This document shows positions 1 to 11,038 of a stretch of 64,000 bases of DNA, one piece after another. The notes under the pieces were generated by a model. That model did not search any database and was not told the origin of the DNA. It saw only the letters and a list, made by a program, of their open reading frames with translations. The stretch is from Isoptericola jiangsuensis (lineage in GTDB: Bacteria > Actinomycetota > Actinomycetes > Actinomycetales > Cellulomonadaceae). Where the stretch lies: NCBI RefSeq assembly GCF_002563715.1, contig NZ_PDJJ01000001.1, forward strand, positions 3,844,001 to 3,908,000, read 5' to 3'. The position numbers and the translations under genes are program-made. Positions within the stretch are counted from its first letter, which is position 1, and the number at the start of each line of letters is the position of its first letter.

Positions 1-1
1 C

Positions 2-625
2 GCCGCGGCGGGGATCGACGTGTACGTGCACGCCCCGTACGTCATCAACGTGGCGTCCCCCAACAACCGCATCCGCATCCCCAGCCGCAAGCTGCTGCAG
101 CAGGTCATGACGCGGGCGGGCGAGATCGGCGCGAAGGGCGTCGTGGTGCACGGCGGTCACGTCACCGCGAAGGACGACCCCGCGACCGGGTTCGACAACT
201 GGCGCAAGGCGATCGACGCCCTCGAGACGGACGTGCCCGTGCTGGTGGAGAACACCGCGGGCGGCGACTTCTCCATGGCGCGCCGCCTGGACCGCATCGA
301 GCAGCTCTGGGCCGCGATCCAGCAGGCCGACGGCGGCTCCGACGTCGGCTTCACCCTGGACACGTGCCACGCGTGGGCCGGCGGCATCGACCTCGCCACC
401 GCCGTCGCGGACGTCCGCGCCATCACAGGCCGCATCGACCTGGTGCACGCCAACGACTCCCGCGACGCCGCGGGGTCGGGCGCCGACCGCCACACCAACT
501 TCGGCGTCGGCGAGATCCCGGACGACCTGCTCGTCGGCGTCGTCCGTGACGCCGGCGCGCCCGTCATCTGCGAGACCAAGGGCGACGTCGCCACGGACAT
601 CACCTGGCTGCGCGACCGTCTCTGA
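2..625 (+). CDS. nfo: Deoxyribonuclease IV (AP endonuclease, Nfo family), 5' truncated by window edge
   Basis: Hydrolyses the phosphodiester 5' of abasic sites in DNA base-excision repair; a cytoplasmic TIM-barrel enzyme with a trinuclear zinc site. The visible 207 residues read in frame from the window edge. They contain [11 protein letters not shown] near the start, the metal-ligand segment VHGGH, the ENTAGG strand, [10 protein letters not shown], and [20 protein letters not shown] with the D-x-H zinc motif, ending in CETKGD. These are the hallmark segments of the family in the expected order. The N-terminal part (about 80 residues of a usual ~280) lies outside the window. It is followed by a repeat-rich intergenic element rather than another gene on this strand. 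Confidence 0.93.
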
Positions 626-640
626 GCAGACCAGGCACCA

Positions 641-720
641 CCGCGACTCAGCGCAACTTCCCGCGACTCAGCGCATACCTGCGCGACTCAGCGCACGCCG
701 GCGCGACTCAGCACAGGATC
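641..720 (+). repeat. Left arm of repeat element I: four 20-bp tandem units
   Basis: Four consecutive units start at 641, 661, 681 and 701. Each carries the core GCGACTCAGCGCA, followed by about seven variable bases. The period is exactly 20 bp. The last unit is slightly decayed (CAGCACA). A further degenerate copy (GCGAGTCGGCGC) is at 762-773. The short ORFs crossing this stretch are translations of the repeat and do not look like genes. Confidence 0.9.
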
Positions 721-950
721 CCGGACGCCTGCCGTGAAGACGCGACAACCTCCACGACTGTGCGAGTCGGCGCCCTCTGCGGGAGCCGGCGCGACGAGCG
801 CCGACGCGGCGCGCGGCTCGAGGACCCGGCGCGACCGGGACACGGCGCGGCGCCGCTCCACGCGAACCGGATCGGCGCGCCCACCGTCCCGCGACACCAT
901 CCGACGCCGAGGCCTGGCACTCCGAGGTCCGCACCTCGGATCCCGACGAC

Positions 951-1052
951 GAAGGACGCCGGAGGTCGCCGCGCGTCGTCGTCCGACCCGAAGTGGAGGG
1001 CGCCCTGCGCCCGTGAACGCGACGACGCGCGGCGTCCTCCGACGTCCGGCAC
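951..1052. other. Conserved hairpin core of repeat element I
   Basis: About 100 bp recur, inverted, at 7162-7262. The arms GGAGGTCGCCGCGCG (961-975) and CGCGCGGCGTCCTCC (1026-1040) pair at 14 of 15 positions, and a 13-bp perfect stem (968-980 with 1021-1033) sits inside. The roughly 40-nt apical segment (981-1020), containing the palindrome AGGGCGCCCT, is almost identical in both copies while the stem bases differ. A small separate hairpin, CCGAGGT/ACCTCGG, lies at 922-939. The rest of 721-950 shows no gene that I recognise. Function unknown: it could be a structured RNA, a protein-bound DNA hairpin, or the body of a small non-autonomous mobile element. Confidence 0.7.
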
Positions 1053-1060
1053 CTGAAAGC

Positions 1061-1140
1061 GCGCTGACTCGCGCCGCCTTGCGCTGACTCGCCGGAAGTC
1101 GCGCTGACTCGCGGGACGCCGCGCCGGGTCGCGGCGGCGG
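1061..1140 (-). repeat. Right arm of repeat element I: inverted 20-bp units
   Basis: Units begin at 1061, 1081 and 1101 with GCGCTGACTCGC, the opposite orientation to the left arm. A decayed fourth unit (GCGCCGGGTCGC) is at 1121. The spacing is again exactly 20 bp. The array ends within a few bases of the stop codon of the response-regulator gene, so the element fills the whole convergent gap between that gene and nfo. Confidence 0.85.
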
Positions 1141-1143
1141 GCG

Positions 1144-1809
1144 CTACGCGCTCAGCCCGGCGTCGTGGACCGTGATGGCGGCCTGGACGCGGTTGGCGGC
1201 GCCCAGCTTGTCGAGGATGCGGGACAGGTGCGTCTTCACGGTGGGGACGCTCATGTAGAGCTCGGCGGCGATCTCCGCGTTGGACAGCCCGCGCGACAGG
1301 ACGACGGCGACCTCTCGTTCCCGGTCGGTCAGCGAGGCGACGCGCCGCGCGGCGGAGCCGGGACGCCGCGCCGGGTCGGGGACCTCGACGGACACGCGGG
1401 CGATGAGCTGGGTCATGACGGACGGGGAGAGGGTGGGTTCGCCGGCGGCGGCGGCGAGGACGGCGGCGACGAGGCGTTCGGGCGGGGTGTCCTTGAGCAG
1501 GAACCCGGCGGCGCCGGCGCGGAGCGCCTGCAGGACCATGTCGTCGGTGTCGAACGTCGTCAGGACGATGACGCGGGGCGCGTCGGGGAGCGCGACGACG
1601 TGGCGGGTCGCCTCCAGCCCGTCGAGGCGGGGCATGCGGATGTCCATGAGGACGACGTCGGGGCGGTGCCGGCGGACGACGTCGACGGCGTCGGCCCCGT
1701 CGGCGGCGTCCGCGACGACGTCGATGTCGGGGGAGCCGCCGAGGATGAGCCGCAGCCCGGCCCGGACGAGCGCGTCGTCGTCGACGACCACGACCTTCAC
1801 CACGTTCAT
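1144..1809 (-). CDS. NarL/LuxR-family response regulator
   Basis: DNA-binding output protein of the two-component system formed with the adjacent kinase. The 221-residue protein has an N-terminal receiver domain with the acidic pair VVDDD, the phosphoacceptor D56 in VVLMDIRMP, the switch threonines in VLTTFD, and the conserved lysine in GFLLKD. A C-terminal LuxR helix-turn-helix follows (SLTDREREVAVVLSRGLSN, then VPTVKTHLSRILDKL). The ATG at 1809 overlaps the kinase stop in an ATGA arrangement, which supports this start over the in-frame ATG at 1827. The divergent ABC transporter at 3224-4941 is the probable target, as in many actinobacterial sensor/exporter pairs; this is inference. Confidence 0.93.
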   Translation of the reverse strand: MNVVKVVVVDDDALVRAGLRLILGGSPDIDVVADAADGADAVDVVRRHRPDVVLMDIRMPRLDGLEATRHVVALPDAPRVIVLTTFDTDDMVLQALRAGAAGFLLKDTPPERLVAAVLAAAAGEPTLSPSVMTQLIARVSVEVPDPARRPGSAARRVASLTDREREVAVVLSRGLSNAEIAAELYMSVPTVKTHLSRILDKLGAANRVQAAITVHDAGLSA

Positions 1810-3062
1810 GCGGTCCACGGTAGCCATGCCTGCACGACGAAGCGGCCGTCCGCGTCGCGGGCGGTGAGGGTACCGCCGCCGAGCTCGGCGCGCTCCATGA
1901 GGCCGAGGAGACCGAGGCCGGAGGACGGGGGGCGGGTGGTGTCGTCGGCGGGTTCCCGGGCGGGGGTGGCGTTGGAGACGGTGATCCACAGCCCCTGGCC
2001 GGGTGCGCCGCGCAGCACGACGGAGGCGGTGACGCCGGGGGCGTGCTTGCGCACGTTGGTCAGGGCTTCCTGGACGATGCGGTAGGCGCTGCGGGAGATG
2101 GCGACGGGCAGCGCCTCGACGCCGGGCACCCGGTCGGTGACGCGGACCGGGGTCCCGGCGGCGGTGGTCGCGGCGACGAGCTCGTCGAGGTCCGCGAGGG
2201 TGGGCTGGGGCCGTTCGGGCCGCGGGTCGTCGGTGGTGCCGCCCGCCGTGGGGCCGTCGAGCCCGCGCAGCACCCCGAGGACCTCCCGGAGCTCCCCGAG
2301 GGCCTCGTGGGCGGAGTCGCGGACGAGGGCGGCGGTCTCGGCGACCTGTGCGGGCGGCAGGTCGGTGCGGTAGGCGAGGGCGCCGGCGTGCATGGCGACG
2401 AGCGACATGCGGTGCGCGAGGACGTCGTGCATCTCGCGGGCGATGCGGGCGCGTTCGTTGGCGCGGGCCTGCGCGACGCGGCCGGCCTGCTCGCGCTCGG
2501 CGGTCGCGATCCGCTCGTACAGGGAGGCGATGTGCTCCCGGCGGAGCCCGATGTAGGCGCCGATCCAGACGAGGAGCGCGAAGAACGCGACGCCGAGGAG
2601 GGTCTCGGTGACCGGTGCGGGGTCGGTCGTGGGGTACAGCTGCCCGTACGTCCAGCCCGCGACGGTGAACACGGCGGCGACGGCGAGGATCCGCCACCAG
2701 CGACGGTGGGTGGCCAGCGACACGATCGCCAGCGTGATCGGCCCGACCGCGAACGCGGAGACGGCGCCCGCAGCGGACACGACGAGCGCCACCGTCGTCG
2801 GGAAGCGGTGCCGCAGCAGTACGGCGCCGAAGCACAGCACCCCGAGCGCGATGTCGAGCGCGAGCTGCCCGCCCGTCATCGCCATGCGTCCTTCGTCGAT
2901 CTCCACGAGGACGAAGCCGGTGGCCGTCAGGCTGAAGAGCAGCGCGAGCCCGAGCCGCCACGTCTCCGCCCAGGCCCTCCTGAGCCTCGTCCGACGTCCA
3001 TCCGGACGCGGCCCGGGCACGGCGGCGAGGTCCGGGTGGGGCACGTCGGTCGGGTCGGTCAC
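1806..3062 (-). CDS. Sensor histidine kinase, HisKA_3 (NarX/DesK-like) type
   Basis: Membrane sensor that autophosphorylates and controls the overlapping response-regulator gene. After a short cytosolic N-terminus there are several hydrophobic membrane segments, a short linker helix, the dimerisation/phosphoacceptor box REMHDVLAHRMS (the histidine of MHD), and a C-terminal HATPase_c domain with EALTNVRKHAPG and the G-box GLGLLGLMERAE. The stop TGA overlaps the regulator's ATG by four bases. A GTG at 3062 is used here. An in-frame ATG at 3128 would add 22 residues, but its only purine-rich upstream run touches the start codon with no spacer, so it is less likely. No extracellular sensing domain of note is present; the signal is probably membrane-derived. 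Confidence 0.9.
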   Translation of the reverse strand: MTDPTDVPHPDLAAVPGPRPDGRRTRLRRAWAETWRLGLALLFSLTATGFVLVEIDEGRMAMTGGQLALDIALGVLCFGAVLLRHRFPTTVALVVSAAGAVSAFAVGPITLAIVSLATHRRWWRILAVAAVFTVAGWTYGQLYPTTDPAPVTETLLGVAFFALLVWIGAYIGLRREHIASLYERIATAEREQAGRVAQARANERARIAREMHDVLAHRMSLVAMHAGALAYRTDLPPAQVAETAALVRDSAHEALGELREVLGVLRGLDGPTAGGTTDDPRPERPQPTLADLDELVAATTAAGTPVRVTDRVPGVEALPVAISRSAYRIVQEALTNVRKHAPGVTASVVLRGAPGQGLWITVSNATPAREPADDTTRPPSSGLGLLGLMERAELGGGTLTARDADGRFVVQAWLPWTA

Positions 3063-3223
3063 GCCGCGAGCGTAGGACGGACGCCGCGGCCCGGCATCCG
3101 CCGTCGGGCTCGCCGCACCGGACGCCATCCTCCGAAAGGATGACGCGGCTCCATCCGACCGACGGACCAGGACCCGCCGTCCGGGCGATCCGCCAGAACC
3201 CCCGCCACCGGCAGGGTGGAGCC

Positions 3224-4123
3224 ATGATCACCGTGGAGCACCTGACCAAGAGGTACGGGCCGGTCCTGGCCGTGGACGACGTGTCGTTCACCGCCGAGCC
3301 GGGACTCGTCACCGGCTTCCTCGGCCCGAACGGGGCCGGCAAGTCGACGACCATGCGCATGATGTGCGGCCTCACCCCGGCCTCGTCGGGCTCGACGCGC
3401 ATCCTCGGGCTGCCGTACGCGGCGCTCACCAACCCGGGCCGCCGGGTCGGCGTCCTGCTGGACGCCTCCGCGCAGCACGCGGGACGCACCGGCCGGGAGG
3501 TCCTCTCCCTGGCCGCGCTGCTCACCGGGGTGGGCCGCTCCCGCGTGGACGAGGTCCTGGACGTCGTGGGCCTGACGACGGCGGAGGCGTCGCGGCGCGT
3601 CGGCACGTTCTCGCTCGGCATGCGGCAGCGCCTCGGCATCGCGGGCGCCCTGCTCGGCGACCCGGAGGTCCTGATCCTCGACGAGCCCGCCAACGGCCTC
3701 GACCCGGCGGGCATCCGCTGGATGCGCGACCTGCTGCGCGGCTTCGCGGCCGACGGCGGGACCGTCCTGCTGTCGTCGCACCTGCTGGGCGAGATCGAGC
3801 AGGTCGCGGACCGCATCGTCGTCATCGGCCGTGGACGGATCGTCGCGGACGGCACGAAGGACGAGCTGCTGCGCGCCGCCGGCACCTACGTCCGCTCCAC
3901 CGACGACGCCGCCCTGGCCGCCGCGCTGCGCGCCGCCGGGACCGACGTCGAGCACCGCACGGGCGGCGGGCTCGTCGCCACCGCCGACACCGAGCACGTC
4001 GCCCGCACCGCAGCCGCCGCCGGCGTCGTCGTCGTCGAGCTCCGGGAGGCGTCGTCGCGCGGCCTGGAGGAGCTGTTCCTCGAGCTCACCGCGGACCACG
4101 CCCGTGAGGAGGTGTCGGCATGA
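3224..4123 (+). CDS. ABC transporter ATP-binding protein (ABC-2 exporter family)
   Basis: Nucleotide-binding subunit of an export system with the permease that overlaps its 3' end. About 299 residues. Walker A is GPNGAGKST, the signature is FSLGMRQRLG, Walker B is VLILDEPANGLD, and the H-loop is LSSHLLGE. After residue ~215 comes the variable C-terminal extension common in drug and lantibiotic exporters of this family. The ATG is preceded by GGGTGGA at good spacing. Start and stop overlaps (ATGA at 4120-4123) indicate translational coupling with the permease. It is divergent from the two-component system, which probably controls it. Confidence 0.93.
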   Translation: MITVEHLTKRYGPVLAVDDVSFTAEPGLVTGFLGPNGAGKSTTMRMMCGLTPASSGSTRILGLPYAALTNPGRRVGVLLDASAQHAGRTGREVLSLAALLTGVGRSRVDEVLDVVGLTTAEASRRVGTFSLGMRQRLGIAGALLGDPEVLILDEPANGLDPAGIRWMRDLLRGFAADGGTVLLSSHLLGEIEQVADRIVVIGRGRIVADGTKDELLRAAGTYVRSTDDAALAAALRAAGTDVEHRTGGGLVATADTEHVARTAAAAGVVVVELREASSRGLEELFLELTADHAREEVSA

Positions 4124-4941
4124 CCGCCCTCGACCCGACCCTGGCCCGCCCCACCCTCACCAGCCGCAGCGACGTCCCGGCCGTCACGTTCGGACGCCTC
4201 GTCGTCGTCGAGTGGCGCAAGCAGCTCGACACGCGTGCCGGCCGCTGGCTGCTCGTCGTCATCGCCGCCGTCACCGCGACCGTCATGATCATCATGGGCG
4301 CCGTCGGCGACGGCGACGTCCCCTTCGAGGCGTTCGTCATCGGCAGCTCCACACCGCTCGCGATGCTGCTGCCCATCGTCGCGATCCTCGCCGCGACGTC
4401 CGAGTGGTCGCAGCGCACCGCCCTGACCACGTTCACCCTGGAGCCCCGGCGGCTGCGCGTCGTCGGCGCGAAGGCCGTGTCCGCCGTCGGCTCCGGCGTC
4501 GCGTTCTACGCCGTCGCCGTCGGCATCGCCGCCCTCGCCCACCTGTGGGTCGTGACGTTCCGTGACGCCACCCCCGACTGGAGCGTCGGCACCGTCACCT
4601 GGGGCACGCTGCTCATGGTCGTCCTGTGGATGCTCGGCGGCATCGCGTTCGGTCTCGCGTTCCTCAGCACCCCGGCCGCGATCGTCACCTACCTCGTGCT
4701 GCCCGTCGTGGTGAGCACGATCGCGGTGTTCGTCACCGCGTGGGCGGACGTGTGGCCGTGGATCGACCTGTCGACCGCGAGCGCCCCCCTCCTGACCGAC
4801 CCGGCGGTCGCGGCACAGGCCGGCATGTCGACCGGTGGGGAGATGTGGGCGCAGATCGCCACGTCGGCCCTCATCTGGGTGGGCGTGCCCCTGGCCGTGG
4901 GCGTGACCCGCGTGCTGCGCGGGGAGATCAAGACGGCCTGA
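4120..4941 (+). CDS. ABC-2 type membrane permease
   Basis: Membrane partner of the preceding ATPase, with 273 residues. A cytosolic N-terminus of about 35 residues ends in VVEWRKQLDTRAGRWLL, the typical elbow of ABC-2 permeases. Six hydrophobic segments follow, among them LLVVIAAVTATVMIIMG and IAFGLAFLSTPAAIVTYLV. The segment ATSEWSQRTALTTFTLEPRR between helices 2 and 3 is a family hallmark. The ATG overlaps the ATPase stop by four bases. The substrate cannot be read from sequence. The gene ends before a strong bidirectional hairpin. Confidence 0.9.
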   Translation: MTALDPTLARPTLTSRSDVPAVTFGRLVVVEWRKQLDTRAGRWLLVVIAAVTATVMIIMGAVGDGDVPFEAFVIGSSTPLAMLLPIVAILAATSEWSQRTALTTFTLEPRRLRVVGAKAVSAVGSGVAFYAVAVGIAALAHLWVVTFRDATPDWSVGTVTWGTLLMVVLWMLGGIAFGLAFLSTPAAIVTYLVLPVVVSTIAVFVTAWADVWPWIDLSTASAPLLTDPAVAAQAGMSTGGEMWAQIATSALIWVGVPLAVGVTRVLRGEIKTA

Positions 4942-4957
4942 CGCCCGCCGGGCCGCC

Positions 4958-5020
4958 CGACGAGCGTGCCGGCGCCTTCCTCTTCCGCCCGGGACGGGAA
5001 GAGCGCCGGCACGCTCGTCG
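4958..5020. terminator. Bidirectional hairpin between convergent permease and antiporter genes
   Basis: An 18-bp perfect outer stem (4958-4975 with 5003-5020) is followed, after a 5-base bulge on the left arm, by a six-base inner stem TCTTCC/GGAAGA (4981-4986 with 4997-5002). There is no long T-run, as is common in high-GC actinobacteria. It lies between two convergent stops (4941 and 5096), so it can serve both transcripts. Confidence 0.8.
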
Positions 5021-5095
5021 CGTTCCACCGGGCGACACCCGGCGGGTCGACGACGACGGCACCCGACCGCCGGGTCGTCCGGTGTCGCACCAGGA

Positions 5096-6970
5096 TCAGG
5101 GCGACTCGCCGCGCATCTCGACCGCGATCTGCTCCGCGTCCAGCAGGTCCAACGCCCGCGACAGCAGCGCCGAGTCGAACGTGCCGTCCGCCCGCGCCCG
5201 CAGCAGCGCCGCCCGCTGCGCCTCGATCACCCGCACCCGCAGCTCGAAGAACTGCGCCGACAGCCCCGCCGACCGCGCCGCGTCCTCGTCCCGCTCCGAC
5301 TCCTCCCGCACCACCGCACCCCGCACCGTCGCCACCACGTCCGGGTCGTACGGCGACCCGTCCACCCGCACCGGCCCCCCGTCCAACAGGTCCGCCGCCG
5401 CGTCGTGCACCACCACCCGCAGGCCCGCCGCGTGCTCCGCCGCCGTCGGCGGCTCCACCCCCGCCAGACCCAGGCGCCGCACCACCCACGGCAGCGTGCC
5501 GCCCTGCACCAGCAACGTGCCCGCCGCCACCCCGAACGCCACCAGCACCAGCAGCGACCGCTGCGGGAAGTCCGCCGGGAGAGTCTGCGCCGCCGCCAAC
5601 GTCACCACCCCACGCATCCCCGCCCACACCAGCACCACACCCTCCCGCGGACCCAACGGCGCCGCCGCCAGATAGTCGATGTCCGCCACCCGGCGTGTGA
5701 TGCGCCGGCTGAACCGCTCGATGCGCGCCAGCAGCCGCTCCCCACCGCCGTCCTCGCCCACCCCCGGGCGACGGCGCGGCCGGTCCTGGTCCTCCCCCCG
5801 CTGCAGCCGCTCCTCCTCGTGGGCCCGACGCCGCGACTCCGTGTCCTGCGGCCACGCCGACCGCAGCACCTCCAACGCCTCGTCCGACGTCATCGACCGC
5901 GACGGGTCGTGCGCCGACAGCTTCGCGTCCAGCCGGTCCTGCATCGTCGCCAACGTGCCCCGCAGCTGTTCGCCCCGCCGACGCCGCAGCGCCAGCCAGC
6001 GCAGCAGCGGCAGCACGAACGCCGCCCGCACCAGCACCACGCCGAACGCCGCCACCACCGCCACACCCAACGCCCGCCACAACGACCCGTGCTCCTCCTG
6101 CACGTCCGTCACCAGCGCGAAGAACTGCAGACCCATCACCAGGAACAGGGCACCCTCCAGCAGCCCCTCCACCGTGCGCCAGTTCACCTTCTCCGCCGAC
6201 CGCACCTGCGGCGTCAGGTACCGCGCCGACAGGGTGCCCGTCACCAGCCCCGCCGTCACCGACGCCACGATCCCCGACGCCTCCAACGCCTCCGCCGGCC
6301 AGTACGCCGCGAACGGCACCAGGAACGACACACCGGTGGACAACGCCGGCGTCGGCAGCCGACGCCGCACCCGCAGACCCAGCAGCCCCACCACCACGCC
6401 GCTCACCACCGCCACCGCGACCGCCCACACGAAGTCCCCCACCACCGACCAGAACGACACGCTCGCCGCCGTCGCCGCCACCGCCGACCGCAGCAGCACC
6501 AGCGACGTCGCGTCGTTCAGCAGCCCCTCGCCGTCCAGCACCGTCACCACCCGCGCCGGCGCACCCAGCCGCTTGATGATCGACGTCGCCACCGCGTCCG
6601 TCGGGCTCACGATCGCCCCCAGCGCGATCCCCGCCGCCAGGTCCAGGCCCGGGATCATCCACGCGAACACGAAGCCCAGACCCACCGCCGACACCACCAC
6701 CAGCAGCACGCTCAACCCCGAGATCGCCCCGAAGTCACGCCGGAAGTCCATCGACGGGAACGACGCCGCCGCCGCGTACAGCAGGGCGGGCAGCACCCCC
6801 GCGAGGATGATCTCCGGCTCCACCTCCCACGCCGGCACCGCCGGGAGGAAGCTCACCCCCAACCCGATCAGCACCAGCACCAACGGCGCACCCACCCCCG
6901 CGCGGGGGGCGAGGGCTGACACGGCGATGATCACGGCGACGGACGCGACCGCCACCAGCATGACGTCCAT
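5096..6970 (-). CDS. Na+/H+ antiporter (CPA1, NhaP/NHE family)
   Basis: Cation/proton antiporter of the cytoplasmic membrane for pH and sodium homeostasis; 624 residues. The N-terminal ~330 residues form the transport domain with about a dozen hydrophobic segments. It contains LGAIVSPTDAVATS (helix-5 region) and GEGLLNDATSLVLL, which includes the conserved ND pair. The core resumes after a charged cytosolic insertion (residues ~335-430, RRR/E/D-rich) with VLVWAGMRGVVTLAAAQTLP, and ends in a cytosolic helical tail. The ATG at 6970 is chosen; a GTG nine bases upstream is an alternative. Repeat element II begins about 50 bp upstream, so the promoter must lie in or next to it. Confidence 0.92.
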   Translation of the reverse strand: MDVMLVAVASVAVIIAVSALAPRAGVGAPLVLVLIGLGVSFLPAVPAWEVEPEIILAGVLPALLYAAAASFPSMDFRRDFGAISGLSVLLVVVSAVGLGFVFAWMIPGLDLAAGIALGAIVSPTDAVATSIIKRLGAPARVVTVLDGEGLLNDATSLVLLRSAVAATAASVSFWSVVGDFVWAVAVAVVSGVVVGLLGLRVRRRLPTPALSTGVSFLVPFAAYWPAEALEASGIVASVTAGLVTGTLSARYLTPQVRSAEKVNWRTVEGLLEGALFLVMGLQFFALVTDVQEEHGSLWRALGVAVVAAFGVVLVRAAFVLPLLRWLALRRRRGEQLRGTLATMQDRLDAKLSAHDPSRSMTSDEALEVLRSAWPQDTESRRRAHEEERLQRGEDQDRPRRRPGVGEDGGGERLLARIERFSRRITRRVADIDYLAAAPLGPREGVVLVWAGMRGVVTLAAAQTLPADFPQRSLLVLVAFGVAAGTLLVQGGTLPWVVRRLGLAGVEPPTAAEHAAGLRVVVHDAAADLLDGGPVRVDGSPYDPDVVATVRGAVVREESERDEDAARSAGLSAQFFELRVRVIEAQRAALLRARADGTFDSALLSRALDLLDAEQIAVEMRGESP

Positions 6971-7018
6971 GCACCTCACCGTAGGTGGGCGCTACCTGTG
7001 GTGCGGGCCGGCGCCGCC

Positions 7019-7152
7019 GCGAGTCAGCGCGGATTCCCGCGAGTCAGCGCTGGCTCCCGCGAGTCAGCGTGGATCCCCGCGAGTCAGCGTGGATCCCCGC
7101 GAGTCAGCGCGGATCCCCGCGAGTCAGCGCTCGGTCGCGCGAGTCAGCGTGG
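7019..7152 (+). repeat. Left arm of repeat element II: seven 20-bp tandem units
   Basis: The core GCGAGTCAGCG recurs with its GAGTCAGCG part at 7021, 7041, 7061, 7081, 7101, 7121 and 7141. The period is exactly 20 bp, with a semi-conserved spacer resembling GGATCCCC. It matches the left arm of element I except for the central base (GAG for GAC). The arm lies directly upstream of the antiporter start codon. Confidence 0.92.
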
Positions 7153-7161
7153 CGCGGTCGG

Positions 7162-7262
7162 GTTCCGGACGTGCGAGGGGGCCGCGCGCCGTCGCGTTCA
7201 CGGGCGCAGGGCGCCCTCCACTTCGGGTCTGACGACGACGCGCGGCCCCCTCCCACGTCCTT
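7162..7262. other. Conserved hairpin core of repeat element II (inverted copy of 951-1052)
   Basis: Reverse-complement homologue of the core in element I. The arms CGAGGGGGCCGCGCG (7174-7188) and CGCGCGGCCCCCTCC (7239-7253) pair almost fully. Compared with element I, one stem pair is exchanged on both arms (C-G against G-C) while pairing is kept, and the ~40-nt apical segment is nearly identical. A further 6-bp hairpin (GCAACC/GGTTGC, 7289-7310) lies between the core and the right arm. No gene is recognisable in 6980-7566. Confidence 0.7.
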
Positions 7263-7315
7263 TCAGCGTCGCGTCCGATGTCGGTCCCGCAACCAGCACT
7301 GACCGGTTGCACTTT

Positions 7316-7560
7316 GCGCAGACTCGCGCGCAACTGCGCTGAGTCGCGTCGGCGAGCGCTGAGTCGCGGGAGCCTGCGCTGAGTCGTGGGGCGGGGCGCT
7401 GAGTCGGGCGGCCGTGCGCTGAGTCGCGTCGGTGAGCGCTGACTCGCGGGAGCCTGCACTGACTCGCGGGGATCAACGCTGACTCGCGGGAGCCCGTGCT
7501 GAGTCGCGGAAATCCGTGCTGACTCGCGGGACCGCGCGCTGAGTCGTGGGGCGGGGCGTC
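7316..7560 (-). repeat. Right arm of repeat element II: twelve inverted 20-bp units
   Basis: Twelve units with GASTCGC at 7321, 7341 and so on to 7541 keep strict 20-bp phase. The consensus is GCGCTGASTCGCGGG, where S is C or G, plus a short variable spacer. The first unit (GCGCAGACTCGC) is decayed. The array ends about seven bases before the stop codon of the nuclease gene. Both central-base variants occur here, which links the arrays of elements I and II. Confidence 0.92.
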
Positions 7561-7566
7561 AGCAGC

Positions 7567-8568
7567 TCAGGGGGTCAGGGTGAGGTCGGTGGGCGTGGCG
7601 ACGGGCGACCAGCCGGTCGGGACGGTGCCGACGGCCAGAGGGGCGGCGGGGCGGTCCTCGTCGGGGAGCGGGGCGAGGACGTCGGCCGCCACGAGCGGGC
7701 CGAGGTCCAGACCCGTCAGCGACTCGACGTCCGCGACCGGGACCTGGAACGTGCGGAACGGGCCGAGGGGCGGGACCTCCCCGACGGCGAGGGCGCGGGC
7801 TGTCGCGGCACGCAGGTCGGCGGTGTCGAGCTGTGGGGACTGGTCGAGGACGAACGCCGCCGCGCGCAGGACGGGCACTGCCGTGCCCCCGGTGTCACCA
7901 TCGACGTCGACACCGGCAGCAGCGTCCGCACCACCACCACCAGCACCGGCACCGCCACTGGCGCCGGCACCGGCACCGGCGTCGAGGGTGGCCCACGCGG
8001 CGACCTTCCAGAAGCGGCGGGGCAGGGCGACGCCGCGGTACACGGGGTCGGTGGGGTCGAACGCACAGCCGGTGTGGACGACGACGCGGTGCCGGTGGGC
8101 GTCCGCGTAGGCGAGGACGTGGTCCTCGAGGCCGTTCCACAGCTCCTTGGACTGGTTGAACCGGTCGACCTGGGGGGCGGCGTTGGAGTAGACGAACGTG
8201 GCCTGCCCGGCGGCGCGGGCCTCGGCGGGCGTGCCCCACATGGGGTCGAGGCGGCGGACGAGGTGGCCGCGGTCGAGGGGGTTGCGGGCGTAGAGCTCGG
8301 GTCCGGCCTGCTCGGCGGCGGGCGCCTGGGGGTCGAGGCGCCAGGTGCCGCTGCGGGGCAGCGGCCGGAGGCGGGCGCCGTCGATCGTGCAGGCGGTGGC
8401 GGCGGCGAGGCGGCGGACCGGGTCGAGCAGCACGGTGAAGTGGGGGTGGTCGAGGTGCCGCAGCTCCCGGGGTCCGGGGGCACCGGGGCCGTCGGGGGTC
8501 GGGCGTGGCGCGGGCAGCGGGACGGCGAGGTCGTCGGGGCCGAGGAACGAGGCGTCGTAGCCGGTCAC
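7567..8568 (-). CDS. DNA/RNA non-specific endonuclease (NUC/ββα-metal family)
   Basis: Sugar-non-specific nuclease of the Serratia/EndoG type, about 333 residues. The catalytic motif is present as NPLDRGHLVRR (DRGH, histidine general base). It is followed by TFVYSNAAPQVDRFNQ, holding the metal-binding asparagine, then GLEDHVLAYAD and VHTGCAF, all diagnostic of the fold. Residues ~210-235 are a glycine/alanine-rich low-complexity insertion. No signal peptide is evident at the GTG chosen here (8568), so secretion is uncertain. A further GTG upstream (VSEEGGWLAP) is possible, and the ribosome-binding site is ambiguous. It sits between element II and a divergent PadR gene. Confidence 0.82.
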   Translation of the reverse strand: MTGYDASFLGPDDLAVPLPAPRPTPDGPGAPGPRELRHLDHPHFTVLLDPVRRLAAATACTIDGARLRPLPRSGTWRLDPQAPAAEQAGPELYARNPLDRGHLVRRLDPMWGTPAEARAAGQATFVYSNAAPQVDRFNQSKELWNGLEDHVLAYADAHRHRVVVHTGCAFDPTDPVYRGVALPRRFWKVAAWATLDAGAGAGASGGAGAGGGGADAAAGVDVDGDTGGTAVPVLRAAAFVLDQSPQLDTADLRAATARALAVGEVPPLGPFRTFQVPVADVESLTGLDLGPLVAADVLAPLPDEDRPAAPLAVGTVPTGWSPVATPTDLTLTP

Positions 8569-8695
8569 GGGTGCGAGCCAACCACCTTCCTCCGACACGC
8601 GCCCCCGTCGTGCCGGGCGAGTGCCGACCCGCGCGACGCGCGGGACACACCTCTCCGCGGGCGGCCGGAGCGTCGCGTGACGCCACCGACGCTTG

Positions 8696-8730
8696 CTAGC
8701 GATATATCGTTGATGTATCTTCGATACGTC
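8696..8730. promoter_or_regulatory. AT-rich promoter/operator region upstream of the PadR gene
   Basis: In a very G+C-rich setting this run is A+T-rich. It holds the 10-bp perfect palindrome CGATATATCG (8700-8709) and an overlapping inverted pair TATCG (8704-8708) / CGATA (8722-8726). PadR regulators commonly bind palindromes in their own promoters, so this is the likely autoregulatory site. The assignment is inference from position and symmetry. Confidence 0.5.
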
Positions 8731-8775
8731 GACGGAGCATCCCGCCCGTCGACCCGTACCGAGAGGAACCACGCC

Positions 8776-9387
8776 ATGCGCACCCCGAACAACGACCCCT
8801 TCATCGACCCCTTCGACCTGCCCCGCGAGCGTCGCCGCGGCGACCACCCGCGCGGAGGCCGAGGCCGCCGCGGCGGCTTCGACGCCGGATGGGAGACCGG
8901 TCCGCGCGGACCGCGCCCCGGGTTCGGCCCCGGCGGACCCGGCGGCCGCGGACCCCGCCGCGGACGCGGCCAGATGCGCGCCGCGATCCTGCTCCTGCTG
9001 GACGAGGGCCCCCGCCACGGGTACCAGATCATCACCGAGCTCGCCGAGCGTTCCGAGGGTGCGTGGCGGCCCAGCCCCGGCGCCGTCTACCCCGCGATCT
9101 CGCAGCTCCAGGACGAGGGCCTGGTCACGCTGTCCGACGACGAGGGCCGCCGCCTCGCCACCCTCACCGACGCCGGCCGCGAGCACGTGGCCGCGCACCG
9201 CGACGAGCTCGGCACCCCCTGGGAGGGCGGCCCCCGGCACGGCGGGCACGAGGTGCACCGCGCCCTGCGCGACCTGCACGGCGCCGTCGAGCAGGTCGTC
9301 CGCACCGGTACGCCGGAGCAGGGCCAGGCCGCCGTCGACATCCTCGACAAGGCCCGCCGCGAGGTCTACCTGCTGCTCGCCGGATGA
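8776..9387 (+). CDS. PadR-family transcriptional regulator with an Arg/Gly-rich N-terminal extension
   Basis: Winged-helix repressor family, 203 residues. Residues ~1-66 are an unusual low-complexity Arg/Gly/Pro-rich extension. The PadR domain begins at GQMRAAILLLLDEGPRHGYQ, followed by RPSPGAVYPAISQLQDEGLV, the recognition helix and wing of the family, and DAGREHVAAHRDEL. A short C-terminal helical region (VDILDKARREVYLLLAG) probably dimerises. The ATG follows GAGAGGAA at usable spacing. No transporter gene lies beside it, so its target is probably its own promoter plus remote genes. PadR proteins often respond to phenolic or antimicrobial ligands; the ligand here is unknown. Confidence 0.88.
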   Translation: MRTPNNDPFIDPFDLPRERRRGDHPRGGRGRRGGFDAGWETGPRGPRPGFGPGGPGGRGPRRGRGQMRAAILLLLDEGPRHGYQIITELAERSEGAWRPSPGAVYPAISQLQDEGLVTLSDDEGRRLATLTDAGREHVAAHRDELGTPWEGGPRHGGHEVHRALRDLHGAVEQVVRTGTPEQGQAAVDILDKARREVYLLLAG

Positions 9388-9394
9388 CCCCCGC

Positions 9395-11038
9395 TCACGG
9401 GGACAGACCCGCCAGCCCGGTCGGCCACCAGCGCAGCAGGTGGCCGTCCACGGCGAGGTCCACGCCCCAGCCGTCCTGGCGGAGGTCGACCGACCACAGG
9501 TCCTCCCCCGTCGACACGTCGAGCGCCCGCCACACCGACACGACCGCTGCGTCGGTGTAGGCCGGGGCGACCGTCGCCACGACGGTCCCGTCGGTGAACA
9601 CCGACTGGATCTCCCCCGTGCGCTGGTCCTCCCCGCCCGACGTGGCCGGCTCCGTCGCCACGTCGTCCCGCACCCACAGGACGCTGCCGTCCGCGAGGTC
9701 GAGACCGAGCACCCGGTCCCGGTCGTCCAGCACCACCGCCACCCCCGACGTGCGCGCCAGCAGCTCGCGCGCGCCGACCCGGGTCCGCCACACCTCTGCC
9801 CCCGTGGCGTCGAGGGCGACCGTCACGCCGTCCTGACCCACCAGCCACCGGTCGGCCGCGACGCCCGACGTCGCCCACGGGTCGAGCAGCCGCCCCACCA
9901 CCACGAACCGCAGCCGACCCTGGCCGTCCAGCACGTGGTGCCGCCACCCGCTCTGCCCCCAGCCGCCGGTCGACACAGCGTAGCCGCCGTCCGCGAGCGG
10001 CCGCACCTGCCGCACGCTCTCCGTGTCGGCGTCCGCCAGGACGCTCAGGTCGAGCGGGTCCCCGTCCGGCGTGAAGTAGGCGAGGATCCCGCAGCCCGAC
10101 ACCCCCACGAGCCGCTCGCTCACGGCGTGCTCCACCGCGCCGCGCCGCTCCAGCTCCGCGGTCCGGCCGCCCGTCGACCACCGCACGCACTGCTCCTCGT
10201 CCAGCACCTCCCCGAACGGCACCGTCCGCGTCCAACGCACCTCCCCCGTCACCGCGTCCTCCAGCCGTACCTGCAGGTCGTATCCGTCGTCGATGTCGCC
10301 CACCACCGCGAGGTCCGTCATCGGGTCGCCCTGGAGCTGCACGTCCACGTCGTCCGGCGACCCCACCCAGCGGGCCGTCATGACCGACGCCCCCGGCCCC
10401 GGCACCGCGAGGTCCACCGGCTCCGACAGCTCGCGGCGGGCCAGGACCGTGCCGTCCTCCTCGACCACCAGCACCGTCGTCGCACCCGCGCGGTCCTGCC
10501 CCAGGCAGACCACGCGCGAGGACCGGGTGACCTCGGCGGTGTCGGACCAGAACGTCAGCCCCGGACCGCAGGTGCCCGGCCGGTCCACCAGTGCGACCGA
10601 CCACCGGGTCTCCCCCGTCTCGAGGTCCACCCCGAGCAGCTCGGCCGCCCGCTGCACCGCCACGACGTCACCCGTGACCGCCGCCAGACCTCCCGGCACG
10701 GCCCGCTCGTCCGCGACCCCGTCGACCCGCCACACCTCGCGCGGGGGGAGCGACAGGTCGACCACGCCGCCCGCCGCCTCGCGCAGGGCCGCCTCCCGGC
10801 CCCGGTCCATCGCGGCGTCCACCACGACGCCCGTCCCCGCCAGGGCGACCACCGCCACGAGCACCCCCCAGCGGGTGTGCCGGTGGGTGCCGCGCCACGC
10901 CCGGCCGACCCGGCCCCGCCGCGTCCCGGCGTCGTCGTCGAGGGTCGCACCCGCGGGCGCGTCGGGGGTGGCGACCTCGCCCTCGTCAGGCACGAGATCG
11001 AACGTGAACGCCCCCTCGGGGCGGCGCCTGCGCCCCAC
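9395..11038 (-). CDS. Membrane-anchored PQQ-like beta-propeller protein (paralogue 1)
   Basis: 547-residue protein of unknown function. A charged cytosolic head (MGRRRRPEGAFTFDLVPDEG) leads to one transmembrane segment near residues 55-75 (WGVLVAVVALAGTGVVVDAAM), then an extracytoplasmic domain built of repeated blades such as LLGVDLETGETRWSV, LEDAVTGEVRWT, VALDATGAEVWRT, GLDLADGSVLWV and ALDVSTGEDLWSV. These match PQQ-type WD-like repeats. The GTG at 11038 is chosen because it aligns with the start of the paralogue (MARRR) and follows CGGGGA; an upstream GTG at 11071 is possible. Quinone cofactor binding is not evident. A scaffold or envelope-sensing role is only a guess. Confidence 0.8.
   Translation of the reverse strand: MGRRRRPEGAFTFDLVPDEGEVATPDAPAGATLDDDAGTRRGRVGRAWRGTHRHTRWGVLVAVVALAGTGVVVDAAMDRGREAALREAAGGVVDLSLPPREVWRVDGVADERAVPGGLAAVTGDVVAVQRAAELLGVDLETGETRWSVALVDRPGTCGPGLTFWSDTAEVTRSSRVVCLGQDRAGATTVLVVEEDGTVLARRELSEPVDLAVPGPGASVMTARWVGSPDDVDVQLQGDPMTDLAVVGDIDDGYDLQVRLEDAVTGEVRWTRTVPFGEVLDEEQCVRWSTGGRTAELERRGAVEHAVSERLVGVSGCGILAYFTPDGDPLDLSVLADADTESVRQVRPLADGGYAVSTGGWGQSGWRHHVLDGQGRLRFVVVGRLLDPWATSGVAADRWLVGQDGVTVALDATGAEVWRTRVGARELLARTSGVAVVLDDRDRVLGLDLADGSVLWVRDDVATEPATSGGEDQRTGEIQSVFTDGTVVATVAPAYTDAAVVSVWRALDVSTGEDLWSVDLRQDGWGVDLAVDGHLLRWWPTGLAGLSP

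Follow-up and report, generated by a model that had tools for sequence, protein, structure and literature searches.

Sequence-conserved hairpins at the 3′ ends of many genes are known from an actinobacterium, the mycobacterial TRIT terminators. The hairpins that we describe here resemble TRIT in standing at gene 3′ ends, a likeness by description only, and differ in their in-gene copies and arrays, neither of which TRIT is known to possess. CRISPR repeats measure about 21 bp or more and have similarly long spacers. Among palindromic repeats, REP stems are given as 5–13 bp, and in BIMEs palindromic modules form mosaics with other repeats, mostly between genes, with intragenic REP units possible (PMC3733652). 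The present family is broadly similar in arrangement, but its stems are mostly 24–35 bp long and joined to a 47-nt head, it has iterated 20-bp units, and no Y1 protein was found in any of the 18 genomes of the genus. Rickettsia palindromic elements (RPE) are of similar size and also occur in frame inside unrelated genes (PMC10969869), a trait found here too; they belong to another lineage, however, and, compared by description only, the present family differs in its conserved head, locus-specific stems, 3′-gap majority and partial association with arrays. The same source describes the pneumococcal SPRITE, BOX and RUP repeats as resembling terminators and clustering together; these come from another phylum, and the forked head and flanking 20-bp arrays set our hairpins apart from them, again by description only. 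The TAACTGA direct repeats of Beggiatoaceae are short and lie in many intergenic regions (PMC4679880), but their unit is of 7 bases, and the available text of that source does not mention a hairpin module. The literature searched for such repeats, as far as its text was available, gave no description of them, and an Isoptericola genome paper (PMC10425560) counts tandem repeats without, in the text available, describing them.

We hypothesise, at a probability of roughly 0.4, that the hairpins and arrays are a non-autonomous two-part palindromic repeat family of four related actinobacterial genera, which has turned into a gene 3′-boundary element. By analogy, the hairpins are best read as part BIME-like and part like the RPE. 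The starting point is a 64-kb stretch of an Isoptericola chromosome, hereafter the window, in which two elements of similar plan have the following parts and neighbours (gene positions here and below come from a codon-usage ORF finder, not from annotation):

2–625, plus strand: AP endonuclease family 2 gene (nfo-like), convergent flank of element I, truncated where the window begins
643–714, minus strand: element I left array of four units (643, 663, 683 and 703, the last with one mismatch), motif GCGCTGAGTCGC
762–773, minus strand: isolated degenerate unit of element I, one mismatch
954–1047, minus strand: element I hairpin, 3′ of the response-regulator gene
978–1023, minus strand: conserved head of the element I hairpin
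1061–1132, plus strand: element I right array, exact units at 1061, 1081 and 1101 and a degenerate fourth at 1121
1144–1818, minus strand: LuxR-type response regulator gene, flank of element I, its 3′ end followed by the hairpin
5096–6970, minus strand: sodium/hydrogen exchanger gene, flank of element II, 5′ end toward the element
7019–7150, minus strand: element II left array of seven units
7167–7260, plus strand: element II hairpin, the query for the family
7191–7236, plus strand: conserved head of the element II hairpin
7316–7547, plus strand: element II right array of twelve units
7567–8568, minus strand: DNA/RNA non-specific endonuclease family gene, flank of element II, 3′ end toward the element

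The first-pass annotation had described a three-part plan of 20-bp arrays around a hairpin, with spacers of about 7 bases, and its recurrence at 7019–7560. Both array-hairpin-array elements are indeed present, and the second has seven minus units, a hairpin and twelve plus units; the spacers, however, are of 8 bases, each 20-bp unit consisting of 12 conserved and 8 variable bases. A 12-bp motif with 8-bp spacers does not have the dimensions of a CRISPR repeat and spacer, as had been stated. With up to one mismatch, GCGCTGASTCGC matches the window 27 times where 5.2 matches are expected (none of 100 shuffles reaches 27), and all 27 fall within elements I and II. The arms of hairpin I (954–981 and 1020–1047) are 93% complementary. 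Folded as RNA, the two hairpins give z = -7.1 and -5.9, and the array stretches of element I an unremarkable -1.6 and 0.3. A second palindrome family is also represented in the window, by a long palindrome at 4956–5022 with ACGAGCGTGC arms in the convergent gap ahead of 5096, which has an Rfam mir-8791 match far under the gathering score; hairpins that share its GAGCGTGC/GCACGCTC ends occupy gene 3′ ends at L018 in this genome and at L258, L263, L267, L268 and L271 in G012, another genome of the genus.

In window positions 1–9000 nothing in Rfam exceeds threshold, the best matches on the hairpins being to F6 at 28.0 and 27.9 bits against a gathering score of 46 (E 0.11 and 0.12), and the core is thus not explained by a known RNA, in keeping with the earlier claim; no tRNA lies within the window. 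Phage, plasmid and viral collections gave no match to element II by BLAST, nor to the exact head pattern in viral_contigs. The insertion-sequence search, which covered the Y1 transposase and reverse transcriptase, found PF01797 in none of the genus's 18 genomes, against 5 of 14 controls, and RVT_1 in none of the 18 genus genomes, two of which are 74% and 86% complete. A REP/RAYT route was rejected for want of the Y1 family, and retrons, group II introns and diversity-generating retroelements for want of RVT_1. None of the element types tested here explains the repeat-flanked hairpins.

The array repeats extend well beyond the two places in the window, to which their confinement would have spoken against the first-pass reading: the motif forms 88 + 124 doublets across this genome (4.04 Mb, one contig). 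Doublets with exact 8-base spacers number 80 + 114 here and 82 + 44 in G012. In a search of other genomes for the motif, as had been suggested, G012 is the sole other genome with the exact form among 58 searched (this one included), and leaving two core bases free gives matches in 8 of 34 genomes, all of them among the genus's 18, with control counts of 0. The core varies by species, being either GCGCTGASTCGC or GCGCTACCTCGC within a common 12-mer frame and at a constant 20-bp period; units of the GCGCTACCTCGC type were observed in G001, G008, G011, G014 and G017, and those of G007 and G015 are known from counts alone. In the loci read, same-strand units no more than 70 bp apart are spaced by 10, 20, 40 or 60 bp in 255 of 259 cases in this genome, and G012 spacings are multiples of 10 in 166 of 175. 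At L009 (1680–1731) overlapping units (GCGCTGAGTCGCGCTGAGTCGC) follow one another at 10-bp rather than 20-bp spacing, and at L271 of G012 (9917–9983) a 35-bp palindrome has two GAGGTAGT units 20 bp apart, the array core of the other species group, where G012 otherwise shows GCGCTGAC units.

Arrays in the fetched loci are intergenic save for overlaps with gene ends (27 bp in L043). A stop codon lies near 37 of the 70 arrays examined, within 5 nt in the TCAGCGC sense in 15 of the 37, and with the stop TGA inside the motif in 5. An array is found within 250 bp of 25 of 40 hairpins in this genome, and on both sides of some hairpins in inverted orientation; other hairpins are array-free. Arrays on the 5′ side, where present, have a constant orientation (15/15 and 13/13), and those on the 3′ side are mixed (10 plus and 14 minus; 12 plus and 11 minus). 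Hairpins without a detected array occur in other species, and there are also arrays without a hairpin; hairpin and array are thus separable, and the symmetric plan of the first-pass annotation is not essential. An autoregulated array-binding protein was considered and rejected: the genes beside the divergent arrays L042 and L045 encode a MerR-like/TOBE protein, a hexapeptide acetyltransferase, an amidase and a GNAT protein, of which the MerR-like/TOBE protein is a weak lead only as a candidate array binder.

The hairpin is the more widespread part, which could not be seen from the window alone. BLAST with the element II hairpin gives at least 44 matches in this genome (the best 40 of 173 candidates were scored), and its fetched loci hold about 42 non-overlapping hairpins; by method, the count is 42 by BLAST, 42 here and 37 in G012 by one pattern, and 40 and 38 by a second. 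Hairpin matches occur in all 18 genus genomes (BLAST, up to 40 candidates scored in each). A search with the covariance model R1 recovers the hairpin from 37 of 150 genomes sampled across the bacterial family, and from 7 of 25 genera, and among named genomes the exact head pattern occurs in at least 64 stretches, a count that may omit records near the window, all of them in Isoptericola, Krasilnikoviella, Promicromonospora or Myceligenerans. Among the best 40 of 173 candidates none lies at 1.38–2.85 Mb, about 36% of the chromosome; this hairpin-poor region, within which few arrays lie, is centred near 2.12 Mb, the antipode of dnaA (56.5 kb) being at 2.08 Mb, and origin-proximal clustering of core genes could explain it.

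In structure, the hairpin is a palindrome that forks: its asymmetric head is conserved (GTCGCGTTCACGG...CCTCCACTTCSGG...GACGAC), and its long stem is largely particular to the locus. Within the head are an internal hairpin, a covarying pair closing a small loop and a crossing pair (columns 24–49); of 54 sequences, 42 have U-A and 12 have C-G at the crossing pair. The stem filter passed 58 of 61 head matches, those dropped being second copies in L013, L061 and L062, and 55 of the 58 hairpins were aligned, L058–L060 being omitted as near-copies of L056/L057. Across the 54 distinct sequences 20 of 29 pairs have changed on both sides, with 284 both-sided against 4 one-sided cells and about 50 of 1560 cells unpaired, and the covariation score is 0.52 against 0.12 in shuffles, none of 500 reaching it. 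Hairpins and arrays are combined in mosaic order, and close hairpin pairs are always of +- arrangement, although few (6/6 and 4/4).

Most hairpins lie in convergent gaps (27 of 42 in this genome, 27 of 37 in G012), although only 10 of the 48 gaps in the window are convergent; divergent gaps hold none here and one in G012. Since following a gene is trivially true of anything in a convergent gap, polarity was measured by distance to both genes. By this measure, the hairpin is closer to the gene that it follows in 71 of 72 cases (17/17 single hairpins here, 22/22 in G012 and 32/33 in other species), and the same is seen in convergent gaps with multiple hairpins (10/10 here, 6/6 in G012). A first impression that polarity held everywhere was given up, because tandem gaps are unbiased in two genomes: the hairpin follows a gene in 7 of 14 here, 2 of 8 in G012 and 13 of 17 in other species. 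Element I obeys the convergent-gap polarity; element II, whose gap is a tandem one, is oriented against both neighbours. No intrinsic terminator (a GC-rich hairpin with a T-run) was found in window positions 500–7800 in a scan limited to loops of 3–8. At L010/L269 and L033/L255, the G012 gap lacks a family hairpin and carries an ordinary long hairpin.

These placements bear on one of the alternatives named in the first-pass annotation, that of a chromosomal docking site. In a BIME- or gyrase-like version, the arrays and the forked hairpin would be docking or topology sites, bound by a nucleoid protein or topoisomerase at places where supercoils accumulate through convergent transcription. Docking would fit the arrays, whose strict 20-bp phasing it would account for, together with the preference for convergent gaps and, among the best 40 of 173 candidates, the hairpin-free stretch near the dnaA antipode. 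We nevertheless find it improbable as an account of the whole, because strict-pattern arrays occur in only 8 of the 18 genus genomes, none of the ten in-gene hairpin copies looked at has a 20-bp array beside it, and core genes may simply cluster toward the origin.

Of 152 distinct hairpins, 26 lie within predicted frames, and the 20 host proteins scanned form six families: gcvP, hrpA (DUF3418), hemD, an RNase_H_2/AAA protein, a hydrolase/AMP-binding fusion and a glycosyltransferase. The hairpins are placed between domain matches except in hrpA, where the hairpin occupies a variable stretch inside the DUF3418 match, and they run with the gene in 12 cases and against it in 11. In gcvP the hairpin is present in 5 and absent from 13 of the 18 genus genomes (read from the linker, with the hairpins confirmed) and is also found in G023 and G072, of other genera. 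Conserved antisense copies occur in gcvP, where the heads are 76–100% identical against a fourfold-site difference of 23–47%, a less clear-cut case than hrpA. There, in Promicromonospora, a 112-nt hairpin is 97–99% identical in three species that differ by 29–33% at hrpA fourfold sites, and 87–88% identical to a fourth, so forming a sharply bounded conserved island within a variable linker. In hemD (uroporphyrinogen-III synthase), an antisense hairpin is found in both this genome and G012 (L036 1926–2027, L135 1961–2062).

The conserved in-gene copies are the strongest sign of something beyond termination, and it is for this reason that we keep a further case, although we regard it as unlikely. 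In this case, the family would represent a chromosomal element of a new class. Its forked DNA hairpin would be maintained as a structure by purifying selection, within protein-coding genes too and whichever way it is oriented, and would be recognised by a putative lineage-specific protein; in Isoptericola it would be accompanied by iterated binding sites, whose core may have switched from GA to AC alongside the specificity of a second, co-evolving protein.

Among 23 hairpin orthologs of this genome and G012, 63 pairs have changed on both sides (11 of them in L035/L136 alone), 35 on one side and 7 otherwise, with 422 unchanged; L016, L029, L030 and L031, among the 24 orthologous locus pairs, were left out of this pair-by-pair comparison. 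Many of the changes are transversions, such as C-G to G-C, and at L031/L140 and L016/L154 the head of one ortholog is inverted relative to that of the other. According to PMC8794818, template switching during replication leaves restored pairing and reverse-complement copies in a stem as its marks; PMC8604942 names arm homogenisation and spacer inversion. We infer from the both-sided changes and flipped heads that template switching in DNA replication keeps the stem near-perfect. In Promicromonospora, each of three host genes has its own stem, common to several species, the exception being gcvP of P. iranensis. Conservation of the heads exceeds that of synonymous sites: among the 18 of 23 compared hairpins whose heads have the same length, this genome and G012 differ at 33 of 840 bases (3.9%), against 23.4% at the fourfold sites of 12 gene pairs.

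Mispairs in the outer stem are GT 26, AC 59 and other 75 of 3413, compared with GT 34 and others 0 of 706 in a tRNA control; an earlier count gave GT/TG 30 and AC/CA 27 of 1535. RNA-level selection on the stem, which we had first drawn from polarity, is weakened by this lack of G-U pairs. However, 130 ordinary 3′ hairpins of the same genomes, with GT 73, AC 63 and other 187 of 2415 and an unchanged picture under stricter cuts, also have no G-U excess, and the test therefore cannot separate RNA-level from DNA-level selection; the DNA-level selection that we had drawn from the G-U deficit was given up, since ordinary hairpins behave alike. That the hairpin is a structured RNA, acting within the sense transcript as a 3′UTR element or as a substrate of RNase III, is in our view improbable. 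The polarity at gene ends in convergent gaps and the covarying head with its crossing pair would suit it, but stems and head pairs have no G-U excess (as in ordinary 3′ hairpins), gcvP has conserved antisense copies, and there is no Rfam match above threshold.

Copies have been gained or lost between species. Of the 34 hairpin loci of this genome, 24 have an orthologous hairpin locus in G012; of the 10 that do not, six gaps were displayed, two with an ordinary hairpin, two short and empty, one with an array only and one with two array units, and of the other four, two have absent or distant flank matches, a third matches on one flank only, and the fourth was located but is not among the six displayed. 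Inspection of these six by eye revealed no target-site duplication, their boundaries being too diverged. In G008 (I. halotolerans), five loci have a nearly identical core with differing array content; one G011 core is close to these as well, and the copying thus need not all be recent. Here, element II and L031 have a core in common from array to array, 97% identical over the hairpin, and their G012 orthologs differ from each other, so that one of the two was probably overwritten. Two local rearrangements may be added: L132 of G012, the orthologous gap of element I, has one hairpin half tandemly duplicated beside the intact hairpin, and L019 (1986–2447) has two facing hairpins around about 270 bp of array-free DNA where the G012 gap is about 30 nt.

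The first-pass annotation had offered a small non-autonomous mobile element, and in this its interpretation is partly supported: near-identical copies at several loci point to copying, but no target-site duplication was recognised. Taken to its end, this would be a purely selfish miniature element of the MITE or Rickettsia-palindrome type, inserted by a hypothetical enzyme and found wherever selection tolerates it. The near-identical cores in G008 and the 97% pair here would be expected of such an element, as would presence and absence between orthologous gaps and in gcvP (5/18) and the in-frame copies in six gene families. Its old copies should decay, yet heads are conserved at orthologous sites; the 24 of 34 loci held in common with G012 and the convergent-gap polarity also speak against it, as do the absence of Y1 transposase and reverse transcriptase from 18 genomes and of a recognised target duplication. 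We consider a purely selfish element unlikely.

Our preferred reading, that of a two-part repeat family turned 3′-boundary element, would work as follows. The first part is the forked hairpin, which stands after stop codons or in frame in protein linkers. In 3′ gaps it may replace the gene's terminator or 3′-end processing hairpin, and template switching during replication would keep its stem near-perfect. The second part, the arrays, which in some Isoptericola lie beside the hairpin or alone, are probable sites of a putative protein that would bind on one helix face, 20 bp being about two turns, and whose specificity may have changed between lineages. At convergent junctions, the arrays could block polymerases coming from the opposite gene. 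New copies might arise, as a guess, by array-mediated ectopic conversion together with a hypothetical enzyme. Several observations argue against the 3′-boundary role: the in-frame copies are conserved and are hardly terminators; orientation inside genes is mixed, tandem gaps are unbiased and element II stands against both neighbours; there is neither a predicted U-run terminator nor a fixed orientation of 3′-side arrays; and the outer stem shows no G-U tolerance, which argues against selection on RNA pairing, although ordinary 3′ hairpins are alike in this.

In at least 37 genomes, both at gene ends and within genes, the family supplies dozens of natural replicates of one hairpin whose head is fixed and whose stem is free. 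It makes testable how palindromic repeats spread without a known enzyme, and how stems stay near-perfect over the long term, their changes being both-sided and intermediates few. Terminators of high-GC actinobacteria often have no U-tract, and the family likewise makes testable what marks the ends of their transcripts. Because the array core has switched at a fixed 20-bp period, it would provide a handle on the binding protein.
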